Source: Sphingopyxis sp. OAS728 (GTDB lineage: Bacteria; Pseudomonadota; Alphaproteobacteria; Sphingomonadales; Sphingomonadaceae). Taken from it: a stretch of DNA of 64,000 nt. Location: positions 1,426,001 to 1,490,000 of the forward strand of contig NZ_JADBDT010000001.1 in assembly GCF_014873485.1 (NCBI RefSeq), given 5' to 3'. Both the position numbers and the translations under genes were made by a program. The notes under the pieces are model-generated. The model ran no database searches, was not told the DNA's origin, and saw only the letters and a list, made by a program, of their open reading frames with translations. This document shows, piece by piece, positions 2,158 through 20,256 of this stretch (positions within the stretch are counted from its first letter, which is position 1; each line of letters opens with the position of its first letter).

Positions 2158-3612
2158 TCATGTGCGAGGATGACGACGGAACCATGCCCCGACCGCTTCT
2201 TTCCACCGTGCCAGCCATCCATGTTTCGGCGTCAGAGCGGTAACCGGCCGAGCCATAACGCCGGGCAGTCCAAGGGCGTCGCCACGACCGTAGCGACGAA
2301 CGCATTCCGAACATTCAGGCTCACGGTGCGGCACGACCTTCATTGTCTTGCGAGCGAGGAAGTGCGCATGCTCATATCGCCAATCACCGCTCGCCTCGCG
2401 AAGACCAAGAAAGTCGAACAGAAAGTCGTTGATGCCCTGCGCCGCCGCAACGGCATTCATCGTGATCACGCTCGGATTGGGCTCGTTCGTCCCATAGGCC
2501 TGGGCCTTGCGATCCTCGTCGGACTTCGCCTCCAGCGCCAGCGTGCCTGAAGGAATGAACCCGTTGCACCATAGGCAGCCTTCGCCAGGCCGAACCGAGC
2601 GGACCGCGCTCATTGCATCGCTGAGCGCGCCTGCCTCGTCCGTTGCGATCTTCGCCCCAAGCTGCACCATCGGAACGAAATACTGATGGGTGATCGCATT
2701 CACGAGCAGTCGCGCGCGCATTGAGTCCGCGCAGAGGAAGATATAGTCACAGCTCTTGAGCGCATCCGCTGCGTCGGCGTTGAGCACGTCAAAGGGGAAT
2801 TGCGTGACCTTAGCGGCGGGATTGGCGGTAAGAATCAAGCGCGCCGCGATCTCGGTCTTGAGGCGAGCTGCCTCAACGTCGGTAGCTGTTGCGCCGACGA
2901 CCCGCGAGAGGTTGGTGTCCTCGATCACGTCTGGATCGATCAACAGGAGTTCGCCAACACCGAGACGGCCTGCATATTCGGCGACCAATGAACCGACGCC
3001 GCCTAGCCCGACGATCGCAACCCGCGCTTCCGCGAGAAGATCCTGCCCGGCCTTGCCGAACATCCGGACTTGGCGGTCGTAGATGCCCCCACCGTCATCA
3101 ACCGTGCGCGGGCGTGCGGTTCGGCGCGCGATCGACTGGCCGATAATCCGATATTCGCCAAGCCTGGCGCGCGCGCCGTCGGGCAGCCAGATATCCCCCT
3201 CGACGGCGCGCCGGCCATAGACGAGGGCGCCGACCGGAACGCCTTTGCCGATGTCGCGCAGGGCGGGATAGCCGCGCTCGTGTGACTCTAGGTCGATCGT
3301 GCTGAAATCGACCCAATCGTCGCAGTCATGGTTATGGACGGCGAGATAAGCGAGCCGCTCGTCACGGCAGCCCGTGATGTGCTTGTGGATAAAGGTCGGT
3401 TTGAGCGCCCGGTAGCCATATTGGCCACGAACATAATCGATGCCGGGCTCGGCGAGCGCGATGTCGCGCACGAGAAGTCTCAGTCCGTTCCCCGCCTCGA
3501 CGATGCCCGCGCGTAGAACGGCGCCATGCTCGTCCCGGTCGCCCGGATAAAGATGGTTCATGAGCCTTGCATGGTCGGCGGCACTGATCCAGACGTCGCA
3601 CGTTCCGGTCAT
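2158..3612 (-). CDS. Fused JAMM peptidase-E1 (ThiF-like) enzyme of a ubiquitin-like system
   Basis: A 484-residue two-domain protein. Residues 1-150 form a JAB/JAMM metalloprotease-like domain with E28, H93-N-H95 and S104/D107, the residues expected to bind zinc and catalyse isopeptide cleavage. Residues 180-440 form an E1/ThiF adenylating domain: the nucleotide loop VGLGGVGS (201-208), LLLIDPDVIEDTNLSR, and two CxxC pairs (346/349 and 434/437) that match the structural zinc knuckle. Such fusions are known from bacterial multiubiquitin systems: the E1 part would activate the Ubl C-terminus and the JAMM part would process or release it. Its start overlaps the E2 stop by ATGA, so translation is coupled. 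I see no unambiguous catalytic E1 cysteine apart from the zinc pairs; C288 and C294 are candidates. Confidence 0.9.
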   Translation of the reverse strand: MTGTCDVWISAADHARLMNHLYPGDRDEHGAVLRAGIVEAGNGLRLLVRDIALAEPGIDYVRGQYGYRALKPTFIHKHITGCRDERLAYLAVHNHDCDDWVDFSTIDLESHERGYPALRDIGKGVPVGALVYGRRAVEGDIWLPDGARARLGEYRIIGQSIARRTARPRTVDDGGGIYDRQVRMFGKAGQDLLAEARVAIVGLGGVGSLVAEYAGRLGVGELLLIDPDVIEDTNLSRVVGATATDVEAARLKTEIAARLILTANPAAKVTQFPFDVLNADAADALKSCDYIFLCADSMRARLLVNAITHQYFVPMVQLGAKIATDEAGALSDAMSAVRSVRPGEGCLWCNGFIPSGTLALEAKSDEDRKAQAYGTNEPNPSVITMNAVAAAQGINDFLFDFLGLREASGDWRYEHAHFLARKTMKVVPHREPECSECVRRYGRGDALGLPGVMARPVTALTPKHGWLARWKEAVGAWFRRHPRT

Positions 3613-3995
3613 TGTACGGTCTCCAGAAAATGCAGGATCTTTAGGAATTTCGCGAGTGCGGTCTGGCGCGCGAGGTGCATCTGGTTGTTCATGCGCGACA
3701 CCTGCAGCGCCGGGCGGCCTTCGAATGTCATCCCGGCCGTGATCGGTACTTCGAACGCGCGACCGTCGGATCGTCGAACATCACCTCCGACGAATACGGG
3801 ATAGATGTCGGCATTCGGATATAGCGCGGTAATATGTCCCCCCATCCAAGTGAAGCGTGGGCAATAACGCTCACCGATGTCCAACGTTTCGATTATTACG
3901 CGCGCACCGCCCTGACCGTCCTCGACCACGGTGACGGCCGAGGACGGGAAAGCACGTTTGAGTTCTTCGATGGCTTCGAGGACATCCTGGTTCAC
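3609..3995 (-). CDS. E2-like protein (prokaryotic E2 family E type)
   Basis: A 128-residue protein between the Ubl gene (11 bp upstream) and the E1/JAMM gene (4 bp overlap). It has an E2/UBC-like layout: an N-terminal helix, strands to about residue 40, GERYCPRFTW and a YPNADIYPVFV strand, then a C-terminal helix. C45 is the only cysteine and so the only candidate for a Ubl thioester; H54, H107 and H122 are the nearby histidines. The combination with Multi_ubiq and JAMM-E1 genes is what supports the E2 call (Prok-E2_E, PF14462-like); sequence similarity to classical E2 enzymes is not visible by eye. Confidence 0.7.
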   Translation of the reverse strand: MNQDVLEAIEELKRAFPSSAVTVVEDGQGGARVIIETLDIGERYCPRFTWMGGHITALYPNADIYPVFVGGDVRRSDGRAFEVPITAGMTFEGRPALQVSRMNNQMHLARQTALAKFLKILHFLETVQ

Positions 3996-4006
3996 CGCGC
4001 CGCTCC

Positions 4007-4285
4007 TTAACTGTTGTCGTCAGGCGCGATCGCCGTGAAACTCATGTGATTATGCACCTTCACTTCCTCAGTGTCGGCGATCACCTTGCTCGTTCCGTTC
4101 GGCAGTTCGAGCTGCAGGACAAAATTGGGCTGGATATTGACGCCTTGTTCGATCGCCGCCGCCTTGATCTCGGCGCCGGTCATCTCGCGCTCGGTAACGA
4201 TGACCTCGTTACCGTTGACTTCGATCCGGATTTTTTTGGGCTTGGGATCCTTGTCTGGCTTTTCCGGTTTGTCGGGACTTGCCAT
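4007..4285 (-). CDS. Ubiquitin-like protein, single Multi_ubiq-type domain
   Basis: A 92-residue protein with a lysine/proline-rich N-terminal tail (residues 1-18) followed by one beta-grasp domain: IRIEVNGNEVIV, MTGAEIKAAA, FVLQLELPNG, EEVKVHNHMSFTAI. The TGAEIK motif is typical of the bacterial multiubiquitin (PF14452) family. It starts at 4285 with an AAAGGAG ribosome site. Only one domain copy is present, although family members often have several. The C-terminus ends in APDDNS with no Gly-Gly, so either the tail is trimmed by the JAMM domain or attachment differs from classical ubiquitin. It is the first gene of the Ubl-E2-E1/JAMM operon. Confidence 0.85.
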   Translation of the reverse strand: MASPDKPEKPDKDPKPKKIRIEVNGNEVIVTEREMTGAEIKAAAIEQGVNIQPNFVLQLELPNGTSKVIADTEEVKVHNHMSFTAIAPDDNS

Positions 4286-4308
4286 TGTCTTTCTCCTTTG
4301 GCATGTAG

Positions 4309-4322
4309 TTGCTGATAAGCAA
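4309..4322. promoter_or_regulatory. Dyad operator copy 1, TTGCT-N4-AGCAA
   Basis: A perfect 5-bp inverted repeat (TTGCTGATAAGCAA) placed 24-37 bp before the Ubl start codon. An identical dyad with a different spacer lies 42 bp away near the start of the XRE gene. The placement and symmetry suggest a binding site for the XRE protein; this is inference. Confidence 0.65.
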
Positions 4323-4350
4323 TTATATGGATTGCCATTCAGGAATGCAA

Positions 4351-4364
4351 TTGCTTTTTAGCAA
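4351..4364. promoter_or_regulatory. Dyad operator copy 2, TTGCT-N4-AGCAA
   Basis: Second copy (TTGCTTTTTAGCAA), 18-31 bp before the XRE start codon and overlapping a GCAATTGC palindrome at 4347-4354. The two dyads are 42 bp apart centre to centre, about four helical turns, so dimers bound to both would lie on the same DNA face. Confidence 0.65.
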
Positions 4365-4381
4365 TCACGAAAGATTTTTGC

Positions 4382-4753
4382 ATGAGCCGTGTCGCCGACT
4401 TTGATTTCTCTTCTTATTTCAAATCTCTAGCTGCAACGGTCACGAGCCGTAACACGAACTGGAAGTCGGTGAGCGAGGCGACCGGTGTGTCGCAGACGAC
4501 ACTTTCGCGCATGGGACGCGGACGCCAACCCGACGCGGAAAGCCTCGCGAAGCTTTCGGCATGGGCGGGTCTAAATCCTGTCGATTACGTTGGCGGAGAA
4601 AAGCGCCGGGCTGAACCGCTCGCTCTCATGGGCAAGCTGCTACGAGAGGACCCCAATCTCGACAGCGCGTCGGCCGATGCGCTCGAGGCAATAATAGAGA
4701 CGGCCTACAGCCGTTTTCGCCGCGATCCGGCGTCAGACAAACTGACCGATTGA
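4382..4753 (+). CDS. XRE-family regulator of the Ubl cassette
   Basis: A 123-residue protein. Residues 27-66 form an HTH (VSEATGVSQTTLSRMGRGRQPDAESLAKLS), followed by WAGLNPVDYV, a typical phage-repressor-like continuation, and a C-terminal helical tail with a VGGEKRRAEPLALMGKLLR segment. It is transcribed divergently from the Ubl gene across 96 bp that hold two identical dyads, so autoregulation together with control of the cassette is likely. The gene ends 3 bp before the stop of the convergent 63-residue gene. Confidence 0.85.
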   Translation: MSRVADFDFSSYFKSLAATVTSRNTNWKSVSEATGVSQTTLSRMGRGRQPDAESLAKLSAWAGLNPVDYVGGEKRRAEPLALMGKLLREDPNLDSASADALEAIIETAYSRFRRDPASDKLTD

Positions 4754-6491: not shown

Positions 6492-6710
6492 TCGATCCCG
6501 CCCCCCGCGATCTTCCGTGCGTGGCTATAAGTGCCGCCAATGAACGTGCATAGCAAAGTCTTTGTCGATTCCATCCTATATGGACCAATTTGGTATATGC
6601 TTTCTTGGCTGCTGATCGAGCAAATATAACAATAAGGGAAAATCTGCGTTTTGCGCATCCTGTTCAACAGGGGTGTCGTAGTTGACGACTGAGATGGAGG
6701 GATGGGACCC

Positions 6711-7904
6711 ATGGCAGGAAGAAATCGTGAAGGTGCTCTGTCAGCTTCAGAGAAGCCTATCGTAAAGGCTCTACTTGCCAAGGGGTGGCGCAACCAAGAC
6801 ATTCAGGCGCTTGTCAACGTGGGTCGCGAGGCGACAATCAACAGCGGTCGCATCACGGAGACGAAGAAAGACAACACCATTGTCGCGGCTAGCGACGAAG
6901 AAATTGAGTTCTTCCAGATCCGGAAAAACTCATACGACCAGAAGACCGGCCTTAATCTGTTTGATCACGAGCGACTGATCCGCGCGCGGGAGGCGATGAT
7001 CCTCGCGGTGCAGGTTTTCAACAGTCCAGCGATGCGGTTCAAAACAGAGGTTTTCGCTATGCTCGCGAACGTCGCGTGGACGTATTTGATGCACGAGCAT
7101 TATGAGCGAAAGGGTGTGAAGATCGTCGGCAAAGACGGACGCTCGCTTCTCCTAAGTCAGATTCTCGAGCGCCACGACTGCCCACTCTCGAAAGGCATTA
7201 GGGACAATCTCCGCGCATTGAAGATCCTGCGAGATGACGTCGAGCATAAGCTCCTTGGTCGAGGAGACTCTAAGTGGCTTGGCTTGTTCCAGGCGTGCTG
7301 CCTGAACTTCGACAAGGCGATGTGCGAGCTATTTGGTGCCCAACTCACATTATCGCATGATCTGGCATTTGCGCTTCAGTTTGCGAAGCTCAACTTCGAT
7401 CAAGCCACCACACTAAACCAGTACGAGATTCCTGAAGCGATCGATGCGATTGACGCCCGGTTGCGGGAGGGGATGACCGAATCTCAGATCGCCGATCTCG
7501 AATACCAATTTCGCGTCATCTATACTTTGGATGCAGTTACGAAGTCTCGTGCTCACTTCCAGTTTGTTCAACCGCACTCGACCGAGGGTAAAGATATCCG
7601 TAATGTGTTGGTTCAGCACAAGTTAGCAGATCATCTGTATCCCCATCGCCCCGGCGACGTAATTAAGAAAGTCGCAGAGATGACTGGCGTGGTGTTCACA
7701 CAGTACAATCATACCCAAGCATGGCGCAAATTCGAAGTTCGCCCGCGTACGGGGGCAGCTCAACCAGAGAATACCAACCGAGATTATTGCATCTACCACG
7801 CGGCTCACGGCGACTACACATTCTCCGATCAATGGGTGCAGAAGTTGGCGGAGGAATGTGGGGATGAGCAACGCCTCCAAGAATTGAAGGCGTTCAAGTT
7901 ATAG
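6711..7904 (+). CDS. DUF3644 domain protein
   Basis: A 397-residue protein starting at MAGRNREG (an ATG at 6702 is also possible). Residues 1-50 read as an HTH-like segment (KALLAKGWRNQDIQALVNVG). Residues 80-210 hold the DUF3644 pattern: AREAMILAVQVFNSPAMRFK, then EVFAMLANVAWTYLMHEHY. The C-terminal region includes WRKFEVRP and DYCIYHAAHGDYTFS. DUF3644 proteins are often found in mobile or defence-associated neighbourhoods; their biochemistry is not established. It is divergent from the peptidase gene with a 219-bp intergenic region. Lower GC and different codon use from the core-like genes further right suggest transfer. Confidence 0.8.
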   Translation: MAGRNREGALSASEKPIVKALLAKGWRNQDIQALVNVGREATINSGRITETKKDNTIVAASDEEIEFFQIRKNSYDQKTGLNLFDHERLIRAREAMILAVQVFNSPAMRFKTEVFAMLANVAWTYLMHEHYERKGVKIVGKDGRSLLLSQILERHDCPLSKGIRDNLRALKILRDDVEHKLLGRGDSKWLGLFQACCLNFDKAMCELFGAQLTLSHDLAFALQFAKLNFDQATTLNQYEIPEAIDAIDARLREGMTESQIADLEYQFRVIYTLDAVTKSRAHFQFVQPHSTEGKDIRNVLVQHKLADHLYPHRPGDVIKKVAEMTGVVFTQYNHTQAWRKFEVRPRTGAAQPENTNRDYCIYHAAHGDYTFSDQWVQKLAEECGDEQRLQELKAFKL

Positions 7905-9345: not shown

Positions 9346-10269
9346 CTATGTCGCGGCGGCGCCCTTTTCGAGTTCGGCGATTTTGTCGGTACATACCTGA
9401 TGGACAGCGTGCCCGAGTCCCTCAACTCGCGCGCCGAGCCAGATGAGTTCTTCTTCGCTGATTTTGTAATGTTTCGAATAGCGCGCCTTGGTGTAGGCTT
9501 CCTTCAACTTTTGGAACATGGCCCGCTCGCGTCGATTGCTCTCAGGCCAAATTCCAAAGAGACGGCGATCTAGCCCCTCCGCAAGCGAACGCAGAAACGC
9601 AATGTTGTGGTTGTAGGGTGTGTAGAAAGTGACTGTGAGTAGCAGGCAGTGGTAAAGCTGCTCCGTGGCCTGATGAAGCTGAAAGGCGGCGTTCTTGCAG
9701 AAGCCATCGTCTAACGCGTGCTTGTAGCTTCGAAAGAACGCAAGCGCGGTCGGCATGCCCTCCTCAAAGTAGTCCTTCGCCGCCACCAATGCCTGATCCG
9801 GTGTCTTAGGCTTCGGCGTAGCCAGTCCTCGCCCTTCAGTTTCGTAAATTGCTATCCCGTCCTTCACGACCTCCATGAAGAAAACACGCCCGTGCGATAG
9901 CCCCTCGTTCACCTCATGCAGGCTGTGTATGATGAAGTTCACTGGGGTCCGAAGCGTCCTCTCAATCGTGTACGCGCGGATCAATCGTTCCTCGGCCTTC
10001 GCCCAATAAGCGGCGCGATCGGTCAGCTCCTTCTGGCTGACGATGATGAGGATGTCATAATCGGATTTATACTGGTTCGCCGACAGCGGCGCATCGATCC
10101 AGTCTCCCCGTGCATGACTACCGAAGAGAATGATCTTGAGAATGCGCGCACCCTTGCGCGGCCCGGTCGCATTCTCGGTCGCCTGGCCGAACTCGTCGAA
10201 AATGATTTCGACGACGCGCTCAAGCTCGCGCTGCTTGGCCGCGGGAAGATGGTCGAGGTCGGTGCGCAT
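9346..10269 (-). CDS. MNT nucleotidyltransferase-HEPN fusion
   Basis: The ATG at 10269 (MRTDLDHLPAAKQRELER) is the family-typical start; an earlier in-frame start at 10374 would add unrelated residues. The N-terminal half is a nucleotidyltransferase with ILFGSHARGDW and KSDYDILIIV, giving the G-S and D-x-D signature. The C-terminal half is a HEPN domain (AAFQLHQATEQLYHCLLL, and an ARYSKHY motif in the R-x-H position). MNT and HEPN are best known as antitoxin and toxin; fused copies are common on plasmids and ICEs of sphingomonads. It is 105 bp downstream of the relaxase gene. Confidence 0.85.
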   Translation of the reverse strand: MRTDLDHLPAAKQRELERVVEIIFDEFGQATENATGPRKGARILKIILFGSHARGDWIDAPLSANQYKSDYDILIIVSQKELTDRAAYWAKAEERLIRAYTIERTLRTPVNFIIHSLHEVNEGLSHGRVFFMEVVKDGIAIYETEGRGLATPKPKTPDQALVAAKDYFEEGMPTALAFFRSYKHALDDGFCKNAAFQLHQATEQLYHCLLLTVTFYTPYNHNIAFLRSLAEGLDRRLFGIWPESNRRERAMFQKLKEAYTKARYSKHYKISEEELIWLGARVEGLGHAVHQVCTDKIAELEKGAAAT

Positions 10270-10374
10270 GGTAATGAATCTTCGGGAATATCGCGCAGTT
10301 TGGCAAGGGCTAACGACCGCGCGAATGCGATTGAATAACTTGGTGCGCGGCTGCGTTGGAAGGCCGGAGGTCAC

Positions 10375-12339
10375 TCACGATATCGACGGGCCGCTGCGCT
10401 GCCGCCCCATCGTCCAATTGATCCCGCCGTCACGCATGATGCCTGCAACGGGCTTGCCGATTTGCCGATCGAGTACCGGCCGCCACGGTACCAGCGTAAA
10501 ATCCCGTGATCGTTCGACCAACGCGTGCCGCCCGCTCGCCATCTCCACCGTTCGCACAAAACGACCCTCGATCCGCTCGCCAGACTTAGCCTCCTTGAAG
10601 GGCTTGCCAAGCTCCTCCGACAGCTGCCCGGCAACGCGCAGCAATTCACGGCGCTGGAGGGCCGCGAGCATACCGCGACGGTAAGTGACTTGCCCGCCCT
10701 GCTCTTCTGCTAACTGCTCGGCGATCAGCCACTGACGCCGCAACGCTTGCGCGGCTCTGACCTCGCGTCCGAACCCGGCATTGCGCAGCTGGGTTGGGGT
10801 CTCGGTCACGAGCTCGCGATCGATCCACGTTGCGGCATCGATCGCGGGTAATTTCTCGATCGGTTCAGCGGACAGGATTTCGACATCGACAGGGCGGCTT
10901 CGCAGCTGCCGCTTTTCGAACGCCTCGACCTTGGCGAGATGATCGGACGATATCGTCCATGTCCCGTCGGGCTCGCGCTCGACGCTACGCATCACCCTTC
11001 GCATTGCCTCGAGCCGGCGAACATGCGTCTCGGCGAACGCCTGCTGCGCCGCAGGGTCGTGGCGTAAATGGGCGTCGACCGAGTAGCGCCCGTCGTTCGC
11101 CGCAGCGACCTCGATGATGGTTCGGTCCACGCCGCGCACGCCCCCGCCGCGCGGTGCGATGCTGACGATCGCGCCTTCGGGGGTCGGTTCGGTCTTTTCG
11201 CCGACGCCGATGTCGACATAATGGGCGCGACCATCGACCCCATCGACGAGCAGATAATGGCGATCGTCATGCTCGTCGGCCAGTCCGCGCATGATCACGC
11301 GGCCAACGAGCCGCGTGCTCGCCCCAGCCGTGGGTTCAAAGATCAGGCGATCGGTGCTCGCGCGTTCGACCTTTCTCGCGCCGAGCTCGCGCTGCATCGT
11401 GCGGATAATATCGCCGCGCTCGCCCATGCGGCGGAGCGTATCGGCGAAGCGCGGTTCGAGACGCCAGCTGTCGCCGCCCAGATGCGTGGCGAGATCCATC
11501 CGTGCGAGCTTCTGCAATCGTCCCGTCCGCAAGGATTGCTGGAGCGGGTCGCGATCGCGCGCGGTGACGAGGCCGAGATCGTTCATGTCGCGAACCAGCC
11601 GGCGGTCAATCGCGGTCAGCCTCTCCTCGCCGACATCGGAGCGGAGGCGCGCATCAATTTCGAGGTCGGTTCGGGGCCCCAGGTCGAGTGTCGCGATCGC
11701 CATCGCGCGCTCGCGGGCGCCGTGCGAAATATACTCGCGCGCGATGACCAGATCGGCGCCGCGATCATTTTTGCCGCGGATCATCACATGGCTGTGCGGA
11801 TGACCGGTGTTGAAATGGTCGACGGCGACCCAGTCGAGCTTCGTGCCGAGGTCTTTCTCCATCTCGCTCATGAGCCGGCGGACGTAAGATTTGAGGTCGG
11901 CAAATTGATCGCCGTCCTCGGGCGCGACGATCATCCGGAACTGATGCCGATCCTGCGCGCAACGGGCGAGGAACGACTTGCCGTCGGCGACGTCGACATC
12001 GGCCGAATAAAGTTCGCCCGGCAACCCCTCGCGCGTCACGCCGTCGCGCTGGATATAGGAGAAATGCGCCTTGGCGGCGCCGAGCCCCTTGCCGGCGAGC
12101 GTGACGGGACGAAACTTCACGATGACCCGGCGAGACCGGAGCGCTGCATGCCTGCCCTGTCCGCGCAGCACCCGCGCGACGCTTGCGCCGCGACCGATCC
12201 GGCTGCCGTCGAACGGGCCGCGCCTGCCGCTTCTCTTGCCCGCACGCCGCGCCGCCTTGACCACGAGCCCGATGTAGCGGGCTTCCTTGCCGCGGCTGCG
12301 CATGCGCCCAAGCCGCGGGGTGAAATCATCATCGTCCAT
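10375..12339 (-). CDS. DUF3363 relaxase (VirD2-like)
   Basis: A 654-residue mobilisation nuclease. Residues 70-190 carry the relaxase fold with VIVKFRPVT, Y95-containing AHFSYIQRDG and the three-histidine metal motif HPHSH (H180, H182, H184) after DHFNTG. The C-terminal two thirds match DUF3363. The very basic N-terminal 70 residues (RSRGKEARYIG, RRAGKRSGRRG) are usual for this group. It should nick oriT and lead the DNA strand during conjugation. The coupling protein and type IV secretion genes are missing from the window, so the element is either incomplete here or mobilised in trans. Confidence 0.92.
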   Translation of the reverse strand: MDDDDFTPRLGRMRSRGKEARYIGLVVKAARRAGKRSGRRGPFDGSRIGRGASVARVLRGQGRHAALRSRRVIVKFRPVTLAGKGLGAAKAHFSYIQRDGVTREGLPGELYSADVDVADGKSFLARCAQDRHQFRMIVAPEDGDQFADLKSYVRRLMSEMEKDLGTKLDWVAVDHFNTGHPHSHVMIRGKNDRGADLVIAREYISHGARERAMAIATLDLGPRTDLEIDARLRSDVGEERLTAIDRRLVRDMNDLGLVTARDRDPLQQSLRTGRLQKLARMDLATHLGGDSWRLEPRFADTLRRMGERGDIIRTMQRELGARKVERASTDRLIFEPTAGASTRLVGRVIMRGLADEHDDRHYLLVDGVDGRAHYVDIGVGEKTEPTPEGAIVSIAPRGGGVRGVDRTIIEVAAANDGRYSVDAHLRHDPAAQQAFAETHVRRLEAMRRVMRSVEREPDGTWTISSDHLAKVEAFEKRQLRSRPVDVEILSAEPIEKLPAIDAATWIDRELVTETPTQLRNAGFGREVRAAQALRRQWLIAEQLAEEQGGQVTYRRGMLAALQRRELLRVAGQLSEELGKPFKEAKSGERIEGRFVRTVEMASGRHALVERSRDFTLVPWRPVLDRQIGKPVAGIMRDGGINWTMGRQRSGPSIS

Positions 12340-12697
12340 ATCGCGTCCTTCCAGTCGGAACGACGCTCCCCAGGGTTAGAATGGCAATTCCGCCGAATTT
12401 GACAAGGAGTCTCGCGTTTGCGGCGTGAAAGGCGCGGAAATCCACGTGATCCGCGCCGCGAGTCTCGCGGCGGAAACGCGTGTCTCGCGAAACCGGCCAA
12501 AAAAGGATGTGCAGACAGTGAGTTACAATATCGCGAGATATTGCTTCTATCTTGCTATCAGCGCGCACCCCTCGATCCGACGCTCCTCCTCCCTTCCCAG
12601 CCGCTCTCCCCGCCGCCCCCTTGCCACCCCAGACAGGCAGAGAAAGAGGAGCAGTGCCTCGACGGCACCGCTCCTTTTCAAGCGCGATCGGCGCCCC
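12340..12697. other. Possible oriT region upstream of the relaxase gene
   Basis: No supported gene. The stretch has three direct copies of GTCTCGCG (12409, 12462, 12482) and a 7-bp inverted repeat CAATATC-GCGA-GATATTG at 12526-12543 in a locally AT-rich patch. Clustered repeats beside a relaxase gene are what an origin of transfer looks like, but no nic consensus is recognised. Confidence 0.4.
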
Positions 12698-13057
12698 TCA
12701 AACTGTCGTTTCGAATGCCTCGTCGGCGGCTATCTCATCCTGAAAATGCCGCACGCCCAGCAGCGCATCGACCGATCCCAGTGCATCGACAAGCAGCACC
12801 GCGACATAGTGCCGCCCGTCCAATATTCCGCTCACCGCGACGCGATCGAGCGCATCTTCCTCGTCCCGGTCGAGGCGCTCATAGCTGCCGAGCCTGCGTT
12901 CGCGCCCCCTCGCTTCCCAGTAAAAATCGGCGCCCTCGGCCTCGATAAATTGCCGCGCCAGGCCTTCCGCCGCCACGCTTCCGAACTCGATTTCGAGTCC
13001 GGCAACGAGCCGTTCAAACACGCGGGTATCACCGATGCTGATCGAAGACTGAAACAT
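12698..13057 (-). CDS. Hypothetical acidic protein, 119 aa
   Basis: An acidic protein starting MFQSSISIGDTRVFERLVAG. GADFYWEARGRE and a DGRHYVAVLLVDALG stretch suggest a small mixed alpha/beta fold. No catalytic motif or membrane segment. It is upstream of the relaxase on the same strand, within the transfer module, and similar small acidic proteins are usual cargo of alphaproteobacterial transfer regions. The family is not recognised. A GAGAAGGATC stretch gives the ribosome site. Confidence 0.6.
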   Translation of the reverse strand: MFQSSISIGDTRVFERLVAGLEIEFGSVAAEGLARQFIEAEGADFYWEARGRERRLGSYERLDRDEEDALDRVAVSGILDGRHYVAVLLVDALGSVDALLGVRHFQDEIAADEAFETTV

Positions 13058-13401
13058 GATCCTTCTCCTTTGCGAAACGCCCTCCTCATCGAGGACGTTC
13101 CTTCAAAGACGGGCGGCGGCGCGGCTGTCAGGGCCGCGCGGAGCGCGCCGCGAAGCGGCGGTGGGGGAACCGATTTTCGCAGAAAATTGGGGGGACCGCC
13201 GGCCTTGCACAGCCGCGCCGCCGCCCGTCACACTTGGCCTTGCCGAGACGAGCCCCCACCCTCCCGGAGTCGCGCGGCGCCATCGGACTGGCGCTATTTT
13301 TTGGCGAAGGGTTTCGCACCTTTCGCCGCGATTATTCGCGAAATTCGAACAGCGAAAAGCCCCCGCACCGTCGCCGGTACGGGGGCGTTCGAGAGCCGCG
13401 A
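13058..13401. other. Leader/intergenic region with terminator
   Basis: About 344 bases. It contains GC-rich short hairpins before the 119-residue gene and, at the far end, the terminator of the DUF736 gene. No gene is supported. Confidence 0.5.
13355..13386 (-). terminator. Intrinsic terminator after the DUF736 gene
   Basis: On the minus strand a strong GC stem (GCCCCCG pairing with CGGGGGC, extended by ACCG/CGGT with one mismatch) is followed by TTTT. It starts 16 bp after the DUF736 stop codon. Confidence 0.8.
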
Positions 13402-13725
13402 TCAGTCGTTCGGATTCCAGATCAGCGCATAGCTGTCGTCGTCGTCCTGCCCGGCGGCGCGGCCGAGATTGCAGTAGAGCCGGCGCGGTCCGAACTCGGG
13501 GGCGGCAAGCGTCAGCGACACATATTGTTCGCCCGAGACCTGCCCGACACGGATCCAGCCTGCGCCGATCTCGACGCCGTCCGAATAGACCCGGTAGTCG
13601 GGCTGGGTCTCGCCCGCCTTGCTGCGGTTGGTACGAACCTCGATGCCCGCGCGGATCGTGAGCGTCTTGAGCTGCCCGACAAAACCCTTGTCGATGCTGC
13701 CGTTCACATAGCCGATGGCTGCCAT
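13402..13725 (-). CDS. DUF736 family protein
   Basis: A 107-residue protein starting MAAIGYVNGS, with GFVGQLKTLTI near the N-terminus and VEIGAGW plus LTLAAPEFGPRRLYCNLG later. This is the full-length pattern of DUF736, a small protein found almost only on plasmids and integrative elements of alphaproteobacteria; its function is unknown. GAGGAGACG lies just before the ATG. A structured leader shared with the ArdC-like gene lies upstream, and an intrinsic terminator follows. Confidence 0.9.
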   Translation of the reverse strand: MAAIGYVNGSIDKGFVGQLKTLTIRAGIEVRTNRSKAGETQPDYRVYSDGVEIGAGWIRVGQVSGEQYVSLTLAAPEFGPRRLYCNLGRAAGQDDDDSYALIWNPND

Positions 13726-13806
13726 TTTTCGTCTCCTCAAAACCGCCGCAGGGACCGTCCCCGCGGCATGGGCGGACCTGAGGACCGGTGCGATGGCGTC
13801 GCGCGA

Positions 13807-13835
13807 ACCCGTAAGGGCCGCAGCGAAGCGGAGGA
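13807..13835 (-). repeat. Shared leader repeat, copy 1
   Basis: Nearly the same 28-29 bases occur at 18460-18487, each 80-100 bp before a start codon on the minus strand. The copies differ by one substitution and one indel. Each holds two small stems, CCGC/GCGG and CCC/GGG, read on the minus strand. Confidence 0.7.
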
Positions 13836-14753
13836 CTTGAGGCGGGCCATTATTTGAGAGCGAAGCGGCCGCGAGGAGCGCGTGGCACACGCGCGGGGAA
13901 ATAATCGCCCGCCGATGGTTTCGCGCGGCGCCGCGCCGGTCCAGGTCCCTCGCCCGGCGCCGGGAGACGGGGCTTGCGGAGACCGAAGGAGGACGAAGGG
14001 CCAGCGATATCCGGACGGCAGCAGGGATCGACCAGGCTTGGCTCAACCGCAGTCGAAGCGCCGCCCCATCGTCCGGGGATCATGCTCAGGAAAGCGAATC
14101 CCGGCATGGCGAACGGCGCCATATCGCTGCCGATGCTTGGCGCGCGACCGGGCCGCGATAGCGGGGAACGCAAGGGCGACTGTCGCGCGATGACACACCT
14201 CGCGGGCTTCGCCACTTGTCGCTTTCTGGTATCGGCAAAGCGCGCTAGGACCGCGCACCAGCCGGCGTCGCGGGGCCGATTGCGACCCAGCCCCGCGAAG
14301 CCGGTTGGCGACGATGCATCATCGATGCGCATATCGTCGGGGCGGTGGGATGGGGAAAACCGCACCGCCCCATATTCGCGGGGATCGTTGCCGATGCGAA
14401 CCCCGTCCCGCCCAAGCCGTCATTCTGATATTCGTTCGACGAACAGGGGCGCTTTGGCGTTTTCAACCTATGCGAATCATCCGCGCGGCGGCAGGGCGTG
14501 CGCGACGACAACTTCTGCCGACCGGAGGCCGCAGCGACCCGCAGCCTCCAATCATCTGTGGGGGCGATGATGAAGATCATCGACTTGGCAGCGCGCGAGA
14601 CCTTCGCGCGCCGCCTTTTTTCTTCTCTTCTTCAGCGCGCCGAGGCCGCTTGCGGCCGAGGCGCGCGCCCGACAGAAATCCATCGCGCCGTCACGAGCCG
14701 CAGCGCGGCGAAGGACGGCGCGATGGCCGCGATCAGGTTGGTGAAACTGGCGG

Positions 14754-14781
14754 ATGAAAGGCGGGCGGCGAACCGCCCGCC
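14754..14781 (-). terminator. Intrinsic terminator after the ParB-like gene
   Basis: A perfect 9-bp stem (GGCGGGCGG / CCGCCCGCC) with a four-base loop at 14769-14772, followed on the minus strand by TTTCAT. It lies 6 bp after the stop codon of the ParB-like gene. Confidence 0.65.
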
Positions 14782-14787
14782 CCTGCC

Positions 14788-16614
14788 TTAGGCCGCAAGC
14801 GGCGGGGCCTCGGCTTCGGCCTCGGTGTCGCTTTGGACGTCCCCGTCGATATCCATATCCACGTCGGCGGGATGGCCCTCGGCTAATTCGGCATCGACCA
14901 TCGCTTCGAGATCGGCGCCCCAGCGTGCATGCGCGCGGACGCTGCCAACGCCGCCGCGCGCCGTATAGGCCGCAGGCGGGAACGCCATCCATCCGGGAAC
15001 CCACGCCGAGACCTGCGTGCGCCCGTTGGCGCCGTCCAGATGATCGGCGATGATCCCTTTCAGCGCCTTCGCCTTCTCCTTTCCGTTCGCTGTCGCGACA
15101 TCGGCGCCCGCCACCTCGCCGACGATGGCGAGCAGCACTTCGCGGTCGCGAAGCTGATCGAAGAAGGCCGCGTCGGCATGCCAATGCCTGCGCATATCGG
15201 TGCCGAGATGGACGCCGATCGCCTCGACCGCGAGGCTTCCCGCCTGCAAGGTTTCGCCCATCACGACCGCGACGACTTCCATCACCACCGGATCGGGAAG
15301 CTCGAGCAGACGCGCGAACACGCCCGCAAAGCCGGGCCGGTTGTAGCCCGAACCCGTCACTGTCGGCGCCTCGGGATCGAAACCGAGCACGCCAAGCACC
15401 GCGCGCCGCTGCGTATCGAAGACGGCCTCGGCGCTACAGGTTTCGACGCTCTCGGCGATGTCCTCCTTCGGCGCGCGCTGACTCTCGACATCGACGCGGT
15501 AATGGTCCGCGCCCGCGATGACATGCGCCACGAGCGCGCGAAGCGCGACCCCGCCGTGGCGCGCGAGGTCGGCGCGAACGGCGGCGTGGCGGTGGAGGTC
15601 GATATAAGTGTTCATCGCCGACGTGACCTCGGGCCGTGCCGCTTTGACGCGGTCGGCAGAACTGCCCGCGCTGGCGCCGCGCGCGGCTTCCTTCGCCGTC
15701 ACGAAGCCTTCGTGGAAGGTCACTTCGCCGCTGTCGCGCACCTCGACATAGACGCGCCCACCCTTGCGCTTCGAGGCATGGGCATAGTCCCACGAGCGGA
15801 ACCATTCGCCGCGCGCGAGTACCGCAACATCGCTCCAACCGGCCTCGATATAGCCAGCCTTGCGCGCTTCGATCTCGGCTATCTGCGCGGCCCAGAAGGC
15901 ATCGCTGTCGGCGAAGAAACGGTCCTCGCCGAAGAGGTCGGCGACGATGGCGGCGCCGCTCGCCTCGGCATCGAACAGCGCATGCTTCACCGCAATCGCG
16001 CTGCCGCCGAAGAGCCATGCTTTCAGCTGATGGCCGGTCGGACAATAGGCCTGCGCGTCGTCGCGCAGCGCCAGCCAAGCGGTCTGCTGGCTTTTCGAGG
16101 CAAGAGTCAGATGGCGCACGGTGGCGGCGTCGATCTCGCCGCCGCGATAGAGGGTGCGGATGCGCGGCAGCAGCGCGCCGAGCGCAAGGATGCGCTTCAC
16201 CGCCGAGACCTCAAAGCCGAAGACATCGGCGATGTCCTCGACGTTGCGGCCCGCCTTGACCAGCGCAATGAACGCCTCCCACTGGCTAACCTCGTCGGGC
16301 TTCACGCGCGCCAGATTTTCGAGCATCGACGCTTCGATGGCAGCGGCGTCGTCGGCATCGTCGAGGATAGCGCACGGCAGCGGCTTCACCTTAACGCCTT
16401 CGCGCGCAACGGCATTCATTGCCGTGAAGCGGCGCCGTCCGGCGACAATCTCGAAATGCCCTTCCGAACAGTTCGGGCGCACGAGCAATGGAACGAGAAC
16501 GCCGCGTGCGCGAATGCTCGGCAAGATATCCGCGACGTCGGGATCCTTTCCTTTGCCGCGCATATTCGTCTTGGCAATCGACAGCTTGTCGAGATCGATA
16601 AAATCGAGTTTCAT
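14788..16614 (-). CDS. ParB/Spo0J-like nuclease-domain protein of a mobile element
   Basis: A 608-residue protein with the ATG at 16614 (MKLDFIDLDKL) and AGGAGC before it. Residues 1-110 are a ParB N-terminal domain: NMRGKGKD, LVPLLVRP, EIVAGRRRFTA (the GxRR box). Next is the ParB HTH-like region, LENLARVKPDEVSQWEAF and DIADVFGFEVSAVKRIL. The long C-terminal part is specific to plasmid and ICE copies, which probably act in element maintenance or gene control rather than in chromosome partition. No ParA partner is next to it, which argues against a classical par locus. Confidence 0.88.
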   Translation of the reverse strand: MKLDFIDLDKLSIAKTNMRGKGKDPDVADILPSIRARGVLVPLLVRPNCSEGHFEIVAGRRRFTAMNAVAREGVKVKPLPCAILDDADDAAAIEASMLENLARVKPDEVSQWEAFIALVKAGRNVEDIADVFGFEVSAVKRILALGALLPRIRTLYRGGEIDAATVRHLTLASKSQQTAWLALRDDAQAYCPTGHQLKAWLFGGSAIAVKHALFDAEASGAAIVADLFGEDRFFADSDAFWAAQIAEIEARKAGYIEAGWSDVAVLARGEWFRSWDYAHASKRKGGRVYVEVRDSGEVTFHEGFVTAKEAARGASAGSSADRVKAARPEVTSAMNTYIDLHRHAAVRADLARHGGVALRALVAHVIAGADHYRVDVESQRAPKEDIAESVETCSAEAVFDTQRRAVLGVLGFDPEAPTVTGSGYNRPGFAGVFARLLELPDPVVMEVVAVVMGETLQAGSLAVEAIGVHLGTDMRRHWHADAAFFDQLRDREVLLAIVGEVAGADVATANGKEKAKALKGIIADHLDGANGRTQVSAWVPGWMAFPPAAYTARGGVGSVRAHARWGADLEAMVDAELAEGHPADVDMDIDGDVQSDTEAEAEAPPLAA

Positions 16615-16702
16615 GGCACATGCTCCTAGTGAGTGCCGGTCCCGTTGGGGGTGGAGTCTCGGCGGGATCGGCTTCGATTGACGGCGAAAACGCGCCGCCG
16701 CG

Positions 16703-17142
16703 TCAGCTGCCCTCGCCTCCCTCGCCCGGCTCGGGGCGACGGTCGGGTTCGGGCAGAAGCCGGTCGGATTTGCCGCGCCTGAGCGCCGCTTCGGCGCGCG
16801 CAATCGAGCCGAGCCGCTGCGCGGTCTCGGTCCAGACCGAGAGCGGCGCGAGCGGGTCGAAGTCCGCATCGCGCTCGATGGCAAGGCCGAAAGGCAGCCG
16901 CACCGTCTTGATTTCGCGCAGTGAAAAGCAGCCGAGTTCGGGGCATCCGAAGCCAAGGTCGGCGAGGCCGAACAGCGTGTCGCCGTCCTCGGCGAGTTCG
17001 GTCGCGATCCAAGTCGCCGCGCCCACCGGATTGATCAATTTAAGGACGGGCCATGGGTCGAAGCGCCCACCCTGCGCGGCGTGGATGCGGCCCGTCAAGC
17101 CGTTGGCGTGGAGCGCGAAGGCGAGGCTGTGGGGAAGCAGGC

Positions 17143-17146
<4 letters not shown>
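16703..17146 (-). CDS. DUF2958 family protein
   Basis: A 147-residue protein. The features KLINPVGAATWIATEL, DGDTLFGLADLGFGCPELG and FSLREIKTVRLPFGLAIERD are the DUF2958 pattern. The family is a regular member of plasmid and ICE transfer regions beside ArdC-like genes; its function is unknown. Its start overlaps the end of the ArdC-like gene by 4 bp, so the two are coupled, and the ParB-like gene follows 88 bp after its stop. Confidence 0.88.
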
Positions 17147-18360
<1,214 letters not shown>

Positions 18361-19081
18361 CGGTGCGGATCCTCCTGACCAAAAACCGCCGCGGCCGGCC
18401 CCGGACGGCGGGGCGGGCTGCAGATCAGGACAAAGGGGTCGCCCCAGAGGCGGGTCCGCACCCGAAGGGCCGGAGCGAAGCGGAGGAGCCGGAAGCATGA
18501 CGGCTTGCGGAGCCGCCGGGCGGCCCCATGGCCCTGCGCCGCCCGAACCGCCGTTCCGGTGCGCCGCCTCGCAAAGCGCGGCCGCGCGCCGCCGGCGCGC
18601 GGCGTCATCAGCATGTTCCCCAGCCACCTTGTCGCTTCGCCCGCTCGATCGGACATGACGGACGAAGAGGAACCGAAATGAAGCCGGTCGGCAGACGCTG
18701 GGGGTCGAACAAGGCGCGGCGCGCGCCCCTCCCAATGATCGACGGCACCGCGGCCCGTCAGGGCCGCTGCGCCGAGCAGAAGAAAACGGTGCCCTTGGCG
18801 AACCGCAGGCGGAGCGGCGTGCGCACGGATGCGACGGGTCGGCCATGGCGCCGCCAGGGCCGGAACAGCGCGGCAGCGCTGTTTACCCGGCGCGAGACGT
18901 GCGCCGCCGTTTCGCCAAGACCGCGAGCCCAAGAGCGCCTGCGCGGCCAAATGAACAAGCGCGCGACCTCTGGCGGCGGCCCCCGCCGCCAGTGTGCGCC
19001 CATTTCAGCCGCGCGCATCAACCGCGCGCAACGGATGGCGTCCCCGGCCGGTCGCCTGTAACCGTCCTTCTCCGCCGTCGC
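18361..19081. other. Leader and gap upstream of the ArdC-like gene
   Basis: About 720 bases. The first 130 form a GC-rich leader that shares a repeat with the DUF736 leader. The rest has only arginine/proline-rich overlapping frames; no gene or remnant is recognised. Confidence 0.5.
18460..18487 (-). repeat. Shared leader repeat, copy 2
   Basis: Counterpart of 13807-13835, located 100 bp before the ArdC-like start codon. Both leaders also share an AAAACCGCCGC stretch close to the ribosome site. Confidence 0.7.
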
Positions 19082-19705
19082 TCAGCGTTTTATGAAGAAG
19101 ATGTCGCCCTTGGCAGCCGGGATTTCGGGAGTCCGCGATTTCGGTTCGGCCGCGAAGAAGGTTGCCTGCGAAGACCCAAGCCGGGGCGCCGGCGGACCGG
19201 TTCTCGCGACCTTCCTGAGATAATCGCGCGTCTCCCTGGGGAGCGAGCGTCGGCCTTCCAGATAGGCCGCGTAACGCGCCGGGCCGGCATTATAGGCGCC
19301 GAAGAGGCCAGGATAACCGAAACGATCGTACATCAGGCGAAGATAGAGCGTCCCCGCAAGGATGTTGTCGCGCGGCGCGTGTGGATCTTGGCCGAGACCG
19401 AGGCGGCGACGCATCTCGGCCCATGTCGCCGGCATCAACTGCATCAATCCCATGGCGCCGGCATGACTTACGATCGGGCGACCATGCCATATCGTGCGTC
19501 CGCCGCTTTCCGCGATCAGCACGCGTTCGATCCATTGCGCCGGAACGCCAAATCGCCCCGAGGCTTCTTCTATATGCGAACGCCAAAGCTCGGTCGGGTT
19601 CATCGCTGCGGGCGCCGCGGCGGCGTGCGCGGGAGCTGTCACTGTCGTTGCTACCGCCGCTGCCGCGGCCGCCGCGATCAGTGCGGAGAGCCTCAGCGCG
19701 TCCAA
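19082..19705 (-). CDS. Lytic transglycosylase of the transfer module
   Basis: A 207-residue protein if started at the TTG at 19705, which overlaps the end of the S26 peptidase gene and directly precedes a signal peptide (ALRLSALIAAAAAAAVATTV ... AHA). A longer start at 19831 would place charged sequence before the signal. The mature part is a goose-lysozyme-like SLT domain: VLIAESGG with catalytic Glu, SHAGAMGLMQLMPATWAEM, LFGAYNAGPARY. It should open peptidoglycan for the conjugation machine in the periplasm. It is followed by a Pro-rich tail ending IFFIKR. Confidence 0.88.
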   Translation of the reverse strand: MDALRLSALIAAAAAAAVATTVTAPAHAAAAPAAMNPTELWRSHIEEASGRFGVPAQWIERVLIAESGGRTIWHGRPIVSHAGAMGLMQLMPATWAEMRRRLGLGQDPHAPRDNILAGTLYLRLMYDRFGYPGLFGAYNAGPARYAAYLEGRRSLPRETRDYLRKVARTGPPAPRLGSSQATFFAAEPKSRTPEIPAAKGDIFFIKR

Positions 19706-20256
19706 AGCAGATGGACCTTGCCGACGATGTCGCTCTCCGCGGTCGGACCGAAATAGCGCCCGTCGAAGGATGCAGCGCCGGGCATGAGCAGCAGATACTC
19801 GCCGCGGCCAAGGACGATGCAGCCAGACCAACGCGGCATCGGCCGCCCCGCGCCGTCGATATCGAGCCGCAGCGCGACCCTGAGGCCATTGACCGTGATA
19901 TCGGCACCGGCCGCACAGACGCGGTCACCGGCCCTGGCCGCAACGCGCTTGATCAGCGGGACGTTCGCGGGAATGTAGCGCCGCGTGCTGCCGAGGACAC
20001 GCCAGCTCGGCGGCAGCCGCGCTGCGACCAGGTCGCCTCGGGCGGGTGGCGCTGCGCTGCCCACCGCATAGAGACCGATCGCCGCGCTGGCGGAAACGTT
20101 CCAGATCAGCAACGGCCTGGGCGGCGTCAGCAAGGCTGCAGTCACCGCGGCGACGACGCCTGCGGCGGCGCCAGCCAGAAAGGCCTTTTGGTGACGGACG
20201 GCCGGCACGCGCAGCGCGCGCAGCCGGAACAGTCTCGCGAAGCGGCCATCACCCAT
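19693..20256 (-). CDS. traF: S26 signal peptidase, TraF type
   Basis: A 187-residue protein with an N-terminal membrane segment (AFLAGAAAGVVAAVTAALL), the catalytic serine in NVSASAAIGLY (S-x-x-x-G-L-Y form) and the catalytic lysine in VPLIKRVAARAGDRVC. This matches the conjugation-specific TraF branch of S26 peptidases, which process and cyclise pilin in RP4-type systems. It overlaps the HTH gene upstream and the transglycosylase gene downstream. No pilin gene lies in the window. Confidence 0.88.
   Translation of the reverse strand: MGDGRFARLFRLRALRVPAVRHQKAFLAGAAAGVVAAVTAALLTPPRPLLIWNVSASAAIGLYAVGSAAPPARGDLVAARLPPSWRVLGSTRRYIPANVPLIKRVAARAGDRVCAAGADITVNGLRVALRLDIDGAGRPMPRWSGCIVLGRGEYLLLMPGAASFDGRYFGPTAESDIVGKVHLLWTR

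Follow-up and report, generated by a model that had tools for sequence, protein, structure and literature searches.

A ubiquitin-like cassette with a conserved serine-ended tail in Sphingopyxis sp. OAS728, from a Bub/type 6e branch without a detected DUF6527 gene

The cassette and the branch to which it belongs

The 64,000-nucleotide stretch analysed here, called the window (Sphingopyxis sp. OAS728, contig NZ_JADBDT010000001.1, positions 1,426,001 to 1,490,000), carries a cassette for a ubiquitin-like protein (Ubl). In it the Ubl gene is followed by genes for a protein with the fold of a ubiquitin-conjugating enzyme (E2) and for a JAMM domain fused to an activating enzyme (E1), with a divergent XRE gene beside them (Table 1). 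A first-pass annotation had described this tight operon and its regulator, and the coordinates, the 11-bp gap between the Ubl and E2 genes and the 4-bp (ATGA) overlap between the E2 and E1 genes were all correct, as were the single-domain Ubl without Gly-Gly, the E2 with one cysteine and the E1 with two CxxC pairs (C346/C349 and C434/C437). Its reservation that the two small proteins might come from unrelated families fell away, both the Ubl and the E2-fold families being confirmed. Among the profile matches that it had proposed to look for, Multi_ubiq and ThiF were found; the Prok-E2_E model gave the window's E2 11.9 bits, below the cut-off of 25, and the Prok-JAB model was unreported for the window's JAMM-E1 protein (18.7 bits in the relative L002, below its cut-off of 25). 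Missing from that description were the conserved Ubl tail, two palindromes that resemble operators and a gene for a candidate C39-like peptidase. The source genome, a single 4.92-Mb contig, has one Multi_ubiq gene. Throughout, L-numbers denote fetched loci, each a stretch around a match, and homolog counts rest on 120 listed homologs out of 3158 for the E1, 239 for the E2 (including one that is identical to the window's protein) and 518 for the Ubl (E<=1e-3).

Table 1. Features of the cassette and its immediate neighbours (window coordinates)
Feature	Position	Strand	Basis
JAMM-E1 fusion, 484 aa, BubCD-like	2158..3612	-	PF00899 (ThiF) 121.5 bits
E2-fold protein, 128 aa, GTG start, BubB-like	3609..3995	-	predicted fold, gene order
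Invariant E2 Ser100 codon (QxSRxN), predicted acyl carrier	3696..3698	-	Ser in 120/120 listed
Ubl, Multi_ubiq, 92 aa, BubA-like	4007..4285	-	PF14452 46.2 bits, cut-off 24.5
DDNS tail codons of the Ubl	4010..4021	-	DDNS in 117/120 listed relatives
Palindrome TTGCTGATAAGCAA, candidate operator	4309..4322	.	TTGCTN4AGCAA pattern
Palindrome TTGCTTTTTAGCAA, candidate operator	4351..4364	.	TTGCTN4AGCAA pattern
XRE/HTH_3 regulator, 123 aa, divergent	4382..4753	+	PF01381 23.4 bits, cut-off 23
C39/papain-like cysteine peptidase candidate, 496 aa	5001..6491	-	motif residues, relatives beside cassettes

In the JAMM-E1 protein, ThiF spans residues 178-435 and the JAMM residues are H93, H95, S104 and D107. 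These residues and all four CxxC cysteines are invariant in the 120 listed E1 homologs, the Rossmann and adenylation residues are retained, and Citrobacter BubCD matches residues 13-406 (E 7.9e-30). No conserved catalytic cysteine was found in the E1. C288, considered for this role, is present in 117 of the 120 but was rejected, since one member of the window's branch (L012) and two of the other branch (L005 and L009) are without it.

The operon kind is already known, both as type 6e of Iyer 2006 and through Bub relatives with solved structures, the closest being Citrobacter BubCD and BubB. Thus, the first-pass view that the roles of such cassettes are largely undescribed holds in part, the operon type having been published in 2006 (PMC1779556). 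As described there, type 6e has one to three Ubl repeats, an RWD/E2-like gene between the Ubl and JAB-E1 genes and a zinc-finger-like protein, and the glycine-less families are reported to be without a conserved Ubl C-terminus. The window shares the Multi_ubiq Ubl, the E2-fold gene between Ubl and E1 and the N-terminal JAB on the E1, but differs in its conserved Ubl tail and in that no DUF6527 gene was found, DUF6527 being, on our reading, Iyer's zinc protein. With Citrobacter BubA/BubB/BubCD the window shares the Multi_ubiq Ubl, the E2-fold BubB, the JAMM-E1 BubCD and the gene order, and both sides have the BubB fold with an invariant Ser in the E2 loop (Ser-Arg). By contrast, the Citrobacter koseri plasmid locus L005 has a DUF6527 gene after BubCD, fused Ubl and E2 and an E1 without the four CxxC cysteines, whereas at the window's cassette no DUF6527 gene was found, the Ubl and E2 genes are separate and the four cysteines are present. 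A mechanism paper on Bub relatives (Ye et al. 2026) is cited in PMC13373217.

The window's cassette belongs to a separate branch, with good support and without any detected DUF6527 gene. In an E1 tree of 33 distinct loci, a 100/100 branch divides the window and 13 other loci from the rest, and none of these 14 stretches, with 0.9 to 9 kb of sequence past the E1 on each side (one side being longer in the window), has a detected DUF6527 gene. No match was found in the source genome either, and because of this the cassette is filed as a Bub relative and not as strict Bub. On the tree the DUF6527 label changes three times, against a mean of about 11 for shuffled labels, and none of 500 shuffles was as low. 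Note that L087, L088 and L114, which are not part of the branch, were likewise without a detected DUF6527 gene. As had been predicted, the cassette with its own regulator recurs in other genomes in the neighbourhood survey of the fetched loci.

Branch members come from Alphaproteobacteria, a Spirochaetaceae metagenome-assembled genome, Mycolicibacterium, Nostoc and Deinococcus, and six are plasmid-borne. The distribution within the genus is patchy: the E1 matched 13 of 99 relatives at 1e-20, the source genome being among the 13. Of these, one besides the source genome (G744, 47% identity) belongs to the window's branch, and those inspected among the remaining ones carry DUF6527-type or separate-JAB operons. 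Multi_ubiq was present in 12 of 385 sampled genomes of the class and in 15 of 398 of the phylum, the window's genome being counted in both. Scanning viral_contigs with the JAMM-E1 protein gave four loci, two outside the branch in the tree and two unplaced, and phages gave short E1-like matches covering at most 37% of the query.

The Ubl tail and the E2 serine

Most characterised ubiquitin-like tags have a glycine end and travel as thioesters. At the end of the window's Ubl, a Ser stands in place of a Gly. The few listed homologs that depart from the DDNS of Table 1 have DDHS (two) or extend beyond DDNS (the remaining one). The tail is better conserved than the rest of the Ubl: an alignment of 28 Ubls shows no variation at D89, D90 and S92 and 93% conservation at N91, compared to an average of 71% over residues 20-82. 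Ubl length varies from 92 aa (L012) to 239 aa (L006), the tail being constant. In the 14 fetched branch loci the tail was read in 13 (L089 has no Ubl by the Ubl model used), and it is DDNS in 10, HEDS in two and EEHA in one. Since DDNS stands at the last residue, the working end of the Ubl is already exposed and maturation should therefore be unnecessary.

The separate Ubls of the DUF6527 loci end in TEG (L011, L090 and L091) or FGL (L105), and fused Ubl-E2 proteins such as that of L005 have the junction VENG. Unlike the DDNS end of the window's Ubl, the solved BubA chain 9ea8_B is aligned through the Gly of VENG, its last residue. A PDB search with profile A1 gave no match, and with profile A2 six weak matches at E<=1, the best being a multi-ubiquitin protein (3e-4). 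A C-terminal Ser was also observed in the multi-Ubl proteins of L079, L084, L095, L097, L099, L100 and L129, which end in DKS, VQS or IQS; most of these loci have a weak DUF6527 match and a distant E1.

The predicted fold of the 128-aa protein is that of an E2, with BubB as the best structural match. The Prok-E2_E model had no match in two E2s from the window's own branch, and the E2s of related operons scored 40.5 to 163.3 bits with it. Ser100, Arg101 and Asn103 are present in all 120 listed E2s, the window's own protein among them. Among the E2s of the fetched loci, 29 were read (L114, with a weak match, being left out): Ser-Arg occurs in 13 of the 14 from the window's branch, and the other type has WSRH in 13 of 13 (12 with a DUF6527 gene; in L117, a short viral stretch, none was found); the E2s of L105 and L107 have FSWH. 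In a profile-profile alignment of the two E2 types the Ser-Arg columns coincide (probability 95.6, E 1e-8). In the E2 model, Ser100 stands right after the last strand and ahead of the C-terminal helix, which we take to be about where E2s hold their catalytic cysteine. We read the invariant Ser100 as a probable serine nucleophile, which would act as an oxyester carrier; the Bub mechanism paper reportedly points the same way. An alternation of Cys and Ser at this position was considered, but the E2 of the separate-JAB multi-Ubl operon again has Ser in the aligned position, with Thr replacing its neighbouring Cys in relatives, and it offers no Cys/Ser swap as evidence.

The C39-like gene, the regulator and the surroundings

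The peptidase candidate has the residues Q162, C169, H268, D302 and D303. In an alignment of 38 rows, a few of which repeat one locus and one of which is a fragment without the Gln/Cys part, the Gln is kept in 36, the Cys in 37 and the His and Asp303 in all 38. This Gln-Cys-His-Asp set, in that order, is typical of papain/C39-like cysteine peptidases and makes the 496-aa protein a candidate for one. The window protein has no Pfam match of note: the C39 models matched neither it nor three close relatives at E<=10, and of seven further members of the family six had no match at E<=1; the relative in L129 reached 24.7 bits with Peptidase_C39_2 (PF13529, cut-off 24). The predicted model (predicted local distance difference test, pLDDT, 58) is too poor to confirm the fold, the PDB fold search was uninformative, and none of the PADLOC models matched the candidate or five relatives.

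In the two nearest cassettes, L002 and L003, relatives that are 49-52% identical lie just past the XRE gene, and L007 has one that is 23% identical, its gene overlapping that of the E1 at the latter's end. Among the 29 inspected loci found by C39 queries only, window excluded, seven adjoin a Ubl operon, some of the seven being near-copies within one genus. One search gave four out of four beside Ubl operons (two multi-Ubl with separate JAB and E1, two Bil), a second one of two (L122, Bil), the plasmid records two of four (L007 and L129) and the viral contigs none of one. The phylum search gave 29 non-window places, of which 11 stayed outside the inspection; none of the 18 fetched regions had an E1-like gene by three E1 models, about half of them being trimmed on one side by a contig end. 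In viral_contigs, the C39 protein alone found nothing and the C39 alignment found one locus, L178, where a relative about 50% identical (1438-2904) lies on a contig where nothing matched an E1, E2 or Ubl.

The adjoining operons vary in type. In L129 (P. aeruginosa) the C39-like gene adjoins a multi-Ubl operon that has a distant E1 and a gene annotated as DUF6527. In L122 and L124 the C39-like gene adjoins a complete BilABCD operon, and PADLOC assigned all four Bil proteins, with E values of 7e-39 and 3e-29 for BilA, 2e-44 and 2e-43 for BilB, 7e-61 and 9e-61 for BilC, and 3e-118 and 7e-113 for BilD, respectively. The peptidase gene of L124 and bilD overlap by four bases, end to end; in L122 the peptidase gene is about 1.7 kb from bilA, with helix-turn-helix (HTH) and M78 genes in between. 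Bil, an antiphage system, shares Ubl, E2, JAB and E1 with the window's cassette, but its JAB and E1 are separate and the Ubl ends in Gly in both Bil operons observed. As further observations, L125 (7869-11084) has a C39-like gene in two pieces and an adjoining operon whose gene ends match the L124 Bil operon. The multi-Ubl operons of L123 (9594-12191), L127 and L126 encode JAB and E1 separately, together with an E2-like protein of 109 aa, and in L123 and L127 the Ubl terminates in GGSS. In L128 (4592-8449), from a Hymenobacter plasmid, the C39-like gene adjoins a caspase-family gene.

The C39-like gene is an accessory common to four kinds of Ubl operon, and its family is wider. An obligate partnership with Ubls was ruled out, 22 of the 29 inspected loci having no adjoining detected Ubl operon. 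It could also be that the peptidase is an unrelated defence-island neighbour with no part in the Ubl pathway, to which we give serious weight, not far short of even. The phylum regions without an E1-like gene speak for such a bystander, as do L121, L128, L130 and L178, also without one, and the strongest phylum match, L160, which adjoins an apparent type I restriction operon, judged by gene size and order only. However, the seven loci adjoining Ubl operons argue against this, and so do the four operon kinds concerned (the window's branch, the L129 type, the separate-JAB multi-Ubl operons and complete Bil) and the end-to-end overlap of several C39-like genes with the E1 gene. In the literature, covered mostly at the level of titles and abstracts, we recognised nothing besides PMC13373217 and PMC1779556 on the Bub mechanism or on a C39-type gene adjoining Ubl operons; such an account may nonetheless be published.

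As regards regulation, the 96-bp gap between the XRE and Ubl genes contains TTGCTgataAGCAA at 4309 and TTGCTttttAGCAA at 4351. The TTGCTN4AGCAA pattern has four sites in the 4.92-Mb genome, two of them in this gap, and the reversed-pattern control has one. Own-genome copies aside, the exact pattern occurs once in the other fetched loci (L105), and inspection of eight related stretches by eye revealed no shared operator motif. XRE relatives adjoin the cassettes L002, L003, L006, L007, L080, L092 and L102, and another lies near the distant E1 of L088. According to PMC13373217, 219 of 544 Bub operons have CapW or CapH+CapP and 59 have CapK+CapS, these systems respond to DNA damage, and phage protection by Bub operons is not demonstrated. 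The window's HTH gene, divergent from the operon, resembles that of CapH+CapP (HTH plus M78 peptidase), but a C39-like peptidase gene adjoins it instead of an M78 gene, and a model from six annotated M78 genes found none in the window's first 12 kb. Many related cassettes carry HTH+M78. In the 14 loci of the window's branch, C39 occurs in four, M78 in six (leaving out model matches inside two helicase-sized open reading frames, in L014 and L108) and neither in four, and the two do not co-occur. That C39 replaces M78 is a lead only, because L122 and L129 carry both.

Around the cassette, a small YjzC-like protein (1828-2025; 29.1 bits, cut-off 25) is encoded immediately downstream of the E1 gene. 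A DUF3644 protein (6702-7904), whose gene is divergent from that of the peptidase, matches the PADLOC candidate defence family PDC-S19 (1e-51). A fused nucleotidyltransferase-HEPN protein follows at 9346-10374, and a protein with a very similar start is encoded near another Ubl operon (L123, 16147-17076). Genes for a DUF3363 relaxase-like protein, a ParB-N protein and an ArdC antirestriction protein (10375-18846) and for a lytic transglycosylase (19082-19831) look like signs of an integrated mobile element.

A proposed serine-based route and its alternatives

We propose, with confidence somewhat better than even, that in this DUF6527-less Bub/type 6e branch a Ser-tailed Ubl is adenylated by the E1, carried as an oxyester on Ser100 of the E2 and removed by the JAMM domain. 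The Ubl, with its conserved DDNS, would be made with its working end exposed. The E1, which keeps the Rossmann and adenylation residues, would adenylate the terminal carboxylate of Ser92 and, having no conserved cysteine, would hand the Ubl as an oxyester to E2 Ser100, whose invariance and E2-cysteine-like position point to this role. From Ser100 the Ubl would move onto a target protein, and the fused JAMM domain, with its motif intact, could detach it again. The XRE protein would repress the operon through the paired TTGCTN4AGCAA sites, and the C39-like peptidase may be an accessory, either a second deconjugase or a trigger removing the repressor in the place of M78/CapP.

Several points weigh against this proposal. 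The tail is variable within the whole branch, since it is EEHA in L004 and HEDS in L014 and L108, and L004 has also lost the Arg after the E2 Ser (Ser-Leu). Just past Ser100-Arg101, residues 104-108 are the sole stretch of the E2 model with a pLDDT below 50. The C39-like gene adjoins four of the 14 cassettes of the branch. Finally, PMC1779556 describes the type 6e E2 as an inactive RWD-like fold on account of the missing cysteine.

That prediction of an inactive E2 favours another explanation, in which the E2-fold protein would have no catalytic activity and would bind the Ubl or the target as an RWD-like adaptor, while a nucleophile of the target attacks the E1 adenylate directly or the Ubl is otherwise used. 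In line with this, ubiquitin E2 variant (UEV) domains of TSG101, which are inactive E2 relatives, are among the top structural matches after BubB, and the conserved catalytic cysteine expected of a canonical E1-E2 cascade was not found among the 120 listed E2s. Yet an adaptor would have no need for one invariant Ser near the E2-nucleophile position in both branches, and Gln98 and Asn103, which flank Ser100, are also invariant in the branch alignment; we consider an adaptor unlikely. Far less probable still is a classical thioester cascade through C45, the residue that the first-pass annotation had expected to be invariant: although C45 is the sole cysteine of the window's E2, Cys stands at position 45 in 5 of the 120 listed proteins, the window's own being one of the five, against 28 with Glu, 26 with Val and 22 with Arg, 44 of the 120 are entirely without cysteine, and in the model C45 precedes strand 48-55 and lies 55 residues before the Ser100 loop, so that on its own terms the expectation failed and the C45 thioester is, on these alignments, already refuted as a conserved mechanism.

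The oxyester route on Ser100 can be extended to a fuller scheme, in which a Ubl with a ready-made acidic Asp-Asp-Asn-Ser end would be conjugated through the Ser of this end by way of the E2 Ser, with a hitherto unrecognised C39 peptidase, common to Bil and other Ubl operons, serving as second deconjugase or derepression trigger; this extension is tentative, and on balance we regard it as doubtful. Relative to PMC13373217 and PMC1779556, the conserved tail without Gly, the branch without a DUF6527 gene and the C39-like gene are new as far as seen, and the conserved Ser tail and the DUF6527-less branch may already be covered by the two main Bub papers.

If the proposal is true, a large family with a Ser-ended Ubl and a Ser E2 would provide a clean test of how far Ubl chemistry varies, and the fixed remnant left by the Ubl would aid the search for its targets by mass spectrometry. 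A peptidase gene common to several types of Ubl operon, including Bil, would in turn point to a shared regulatory or reversal step.

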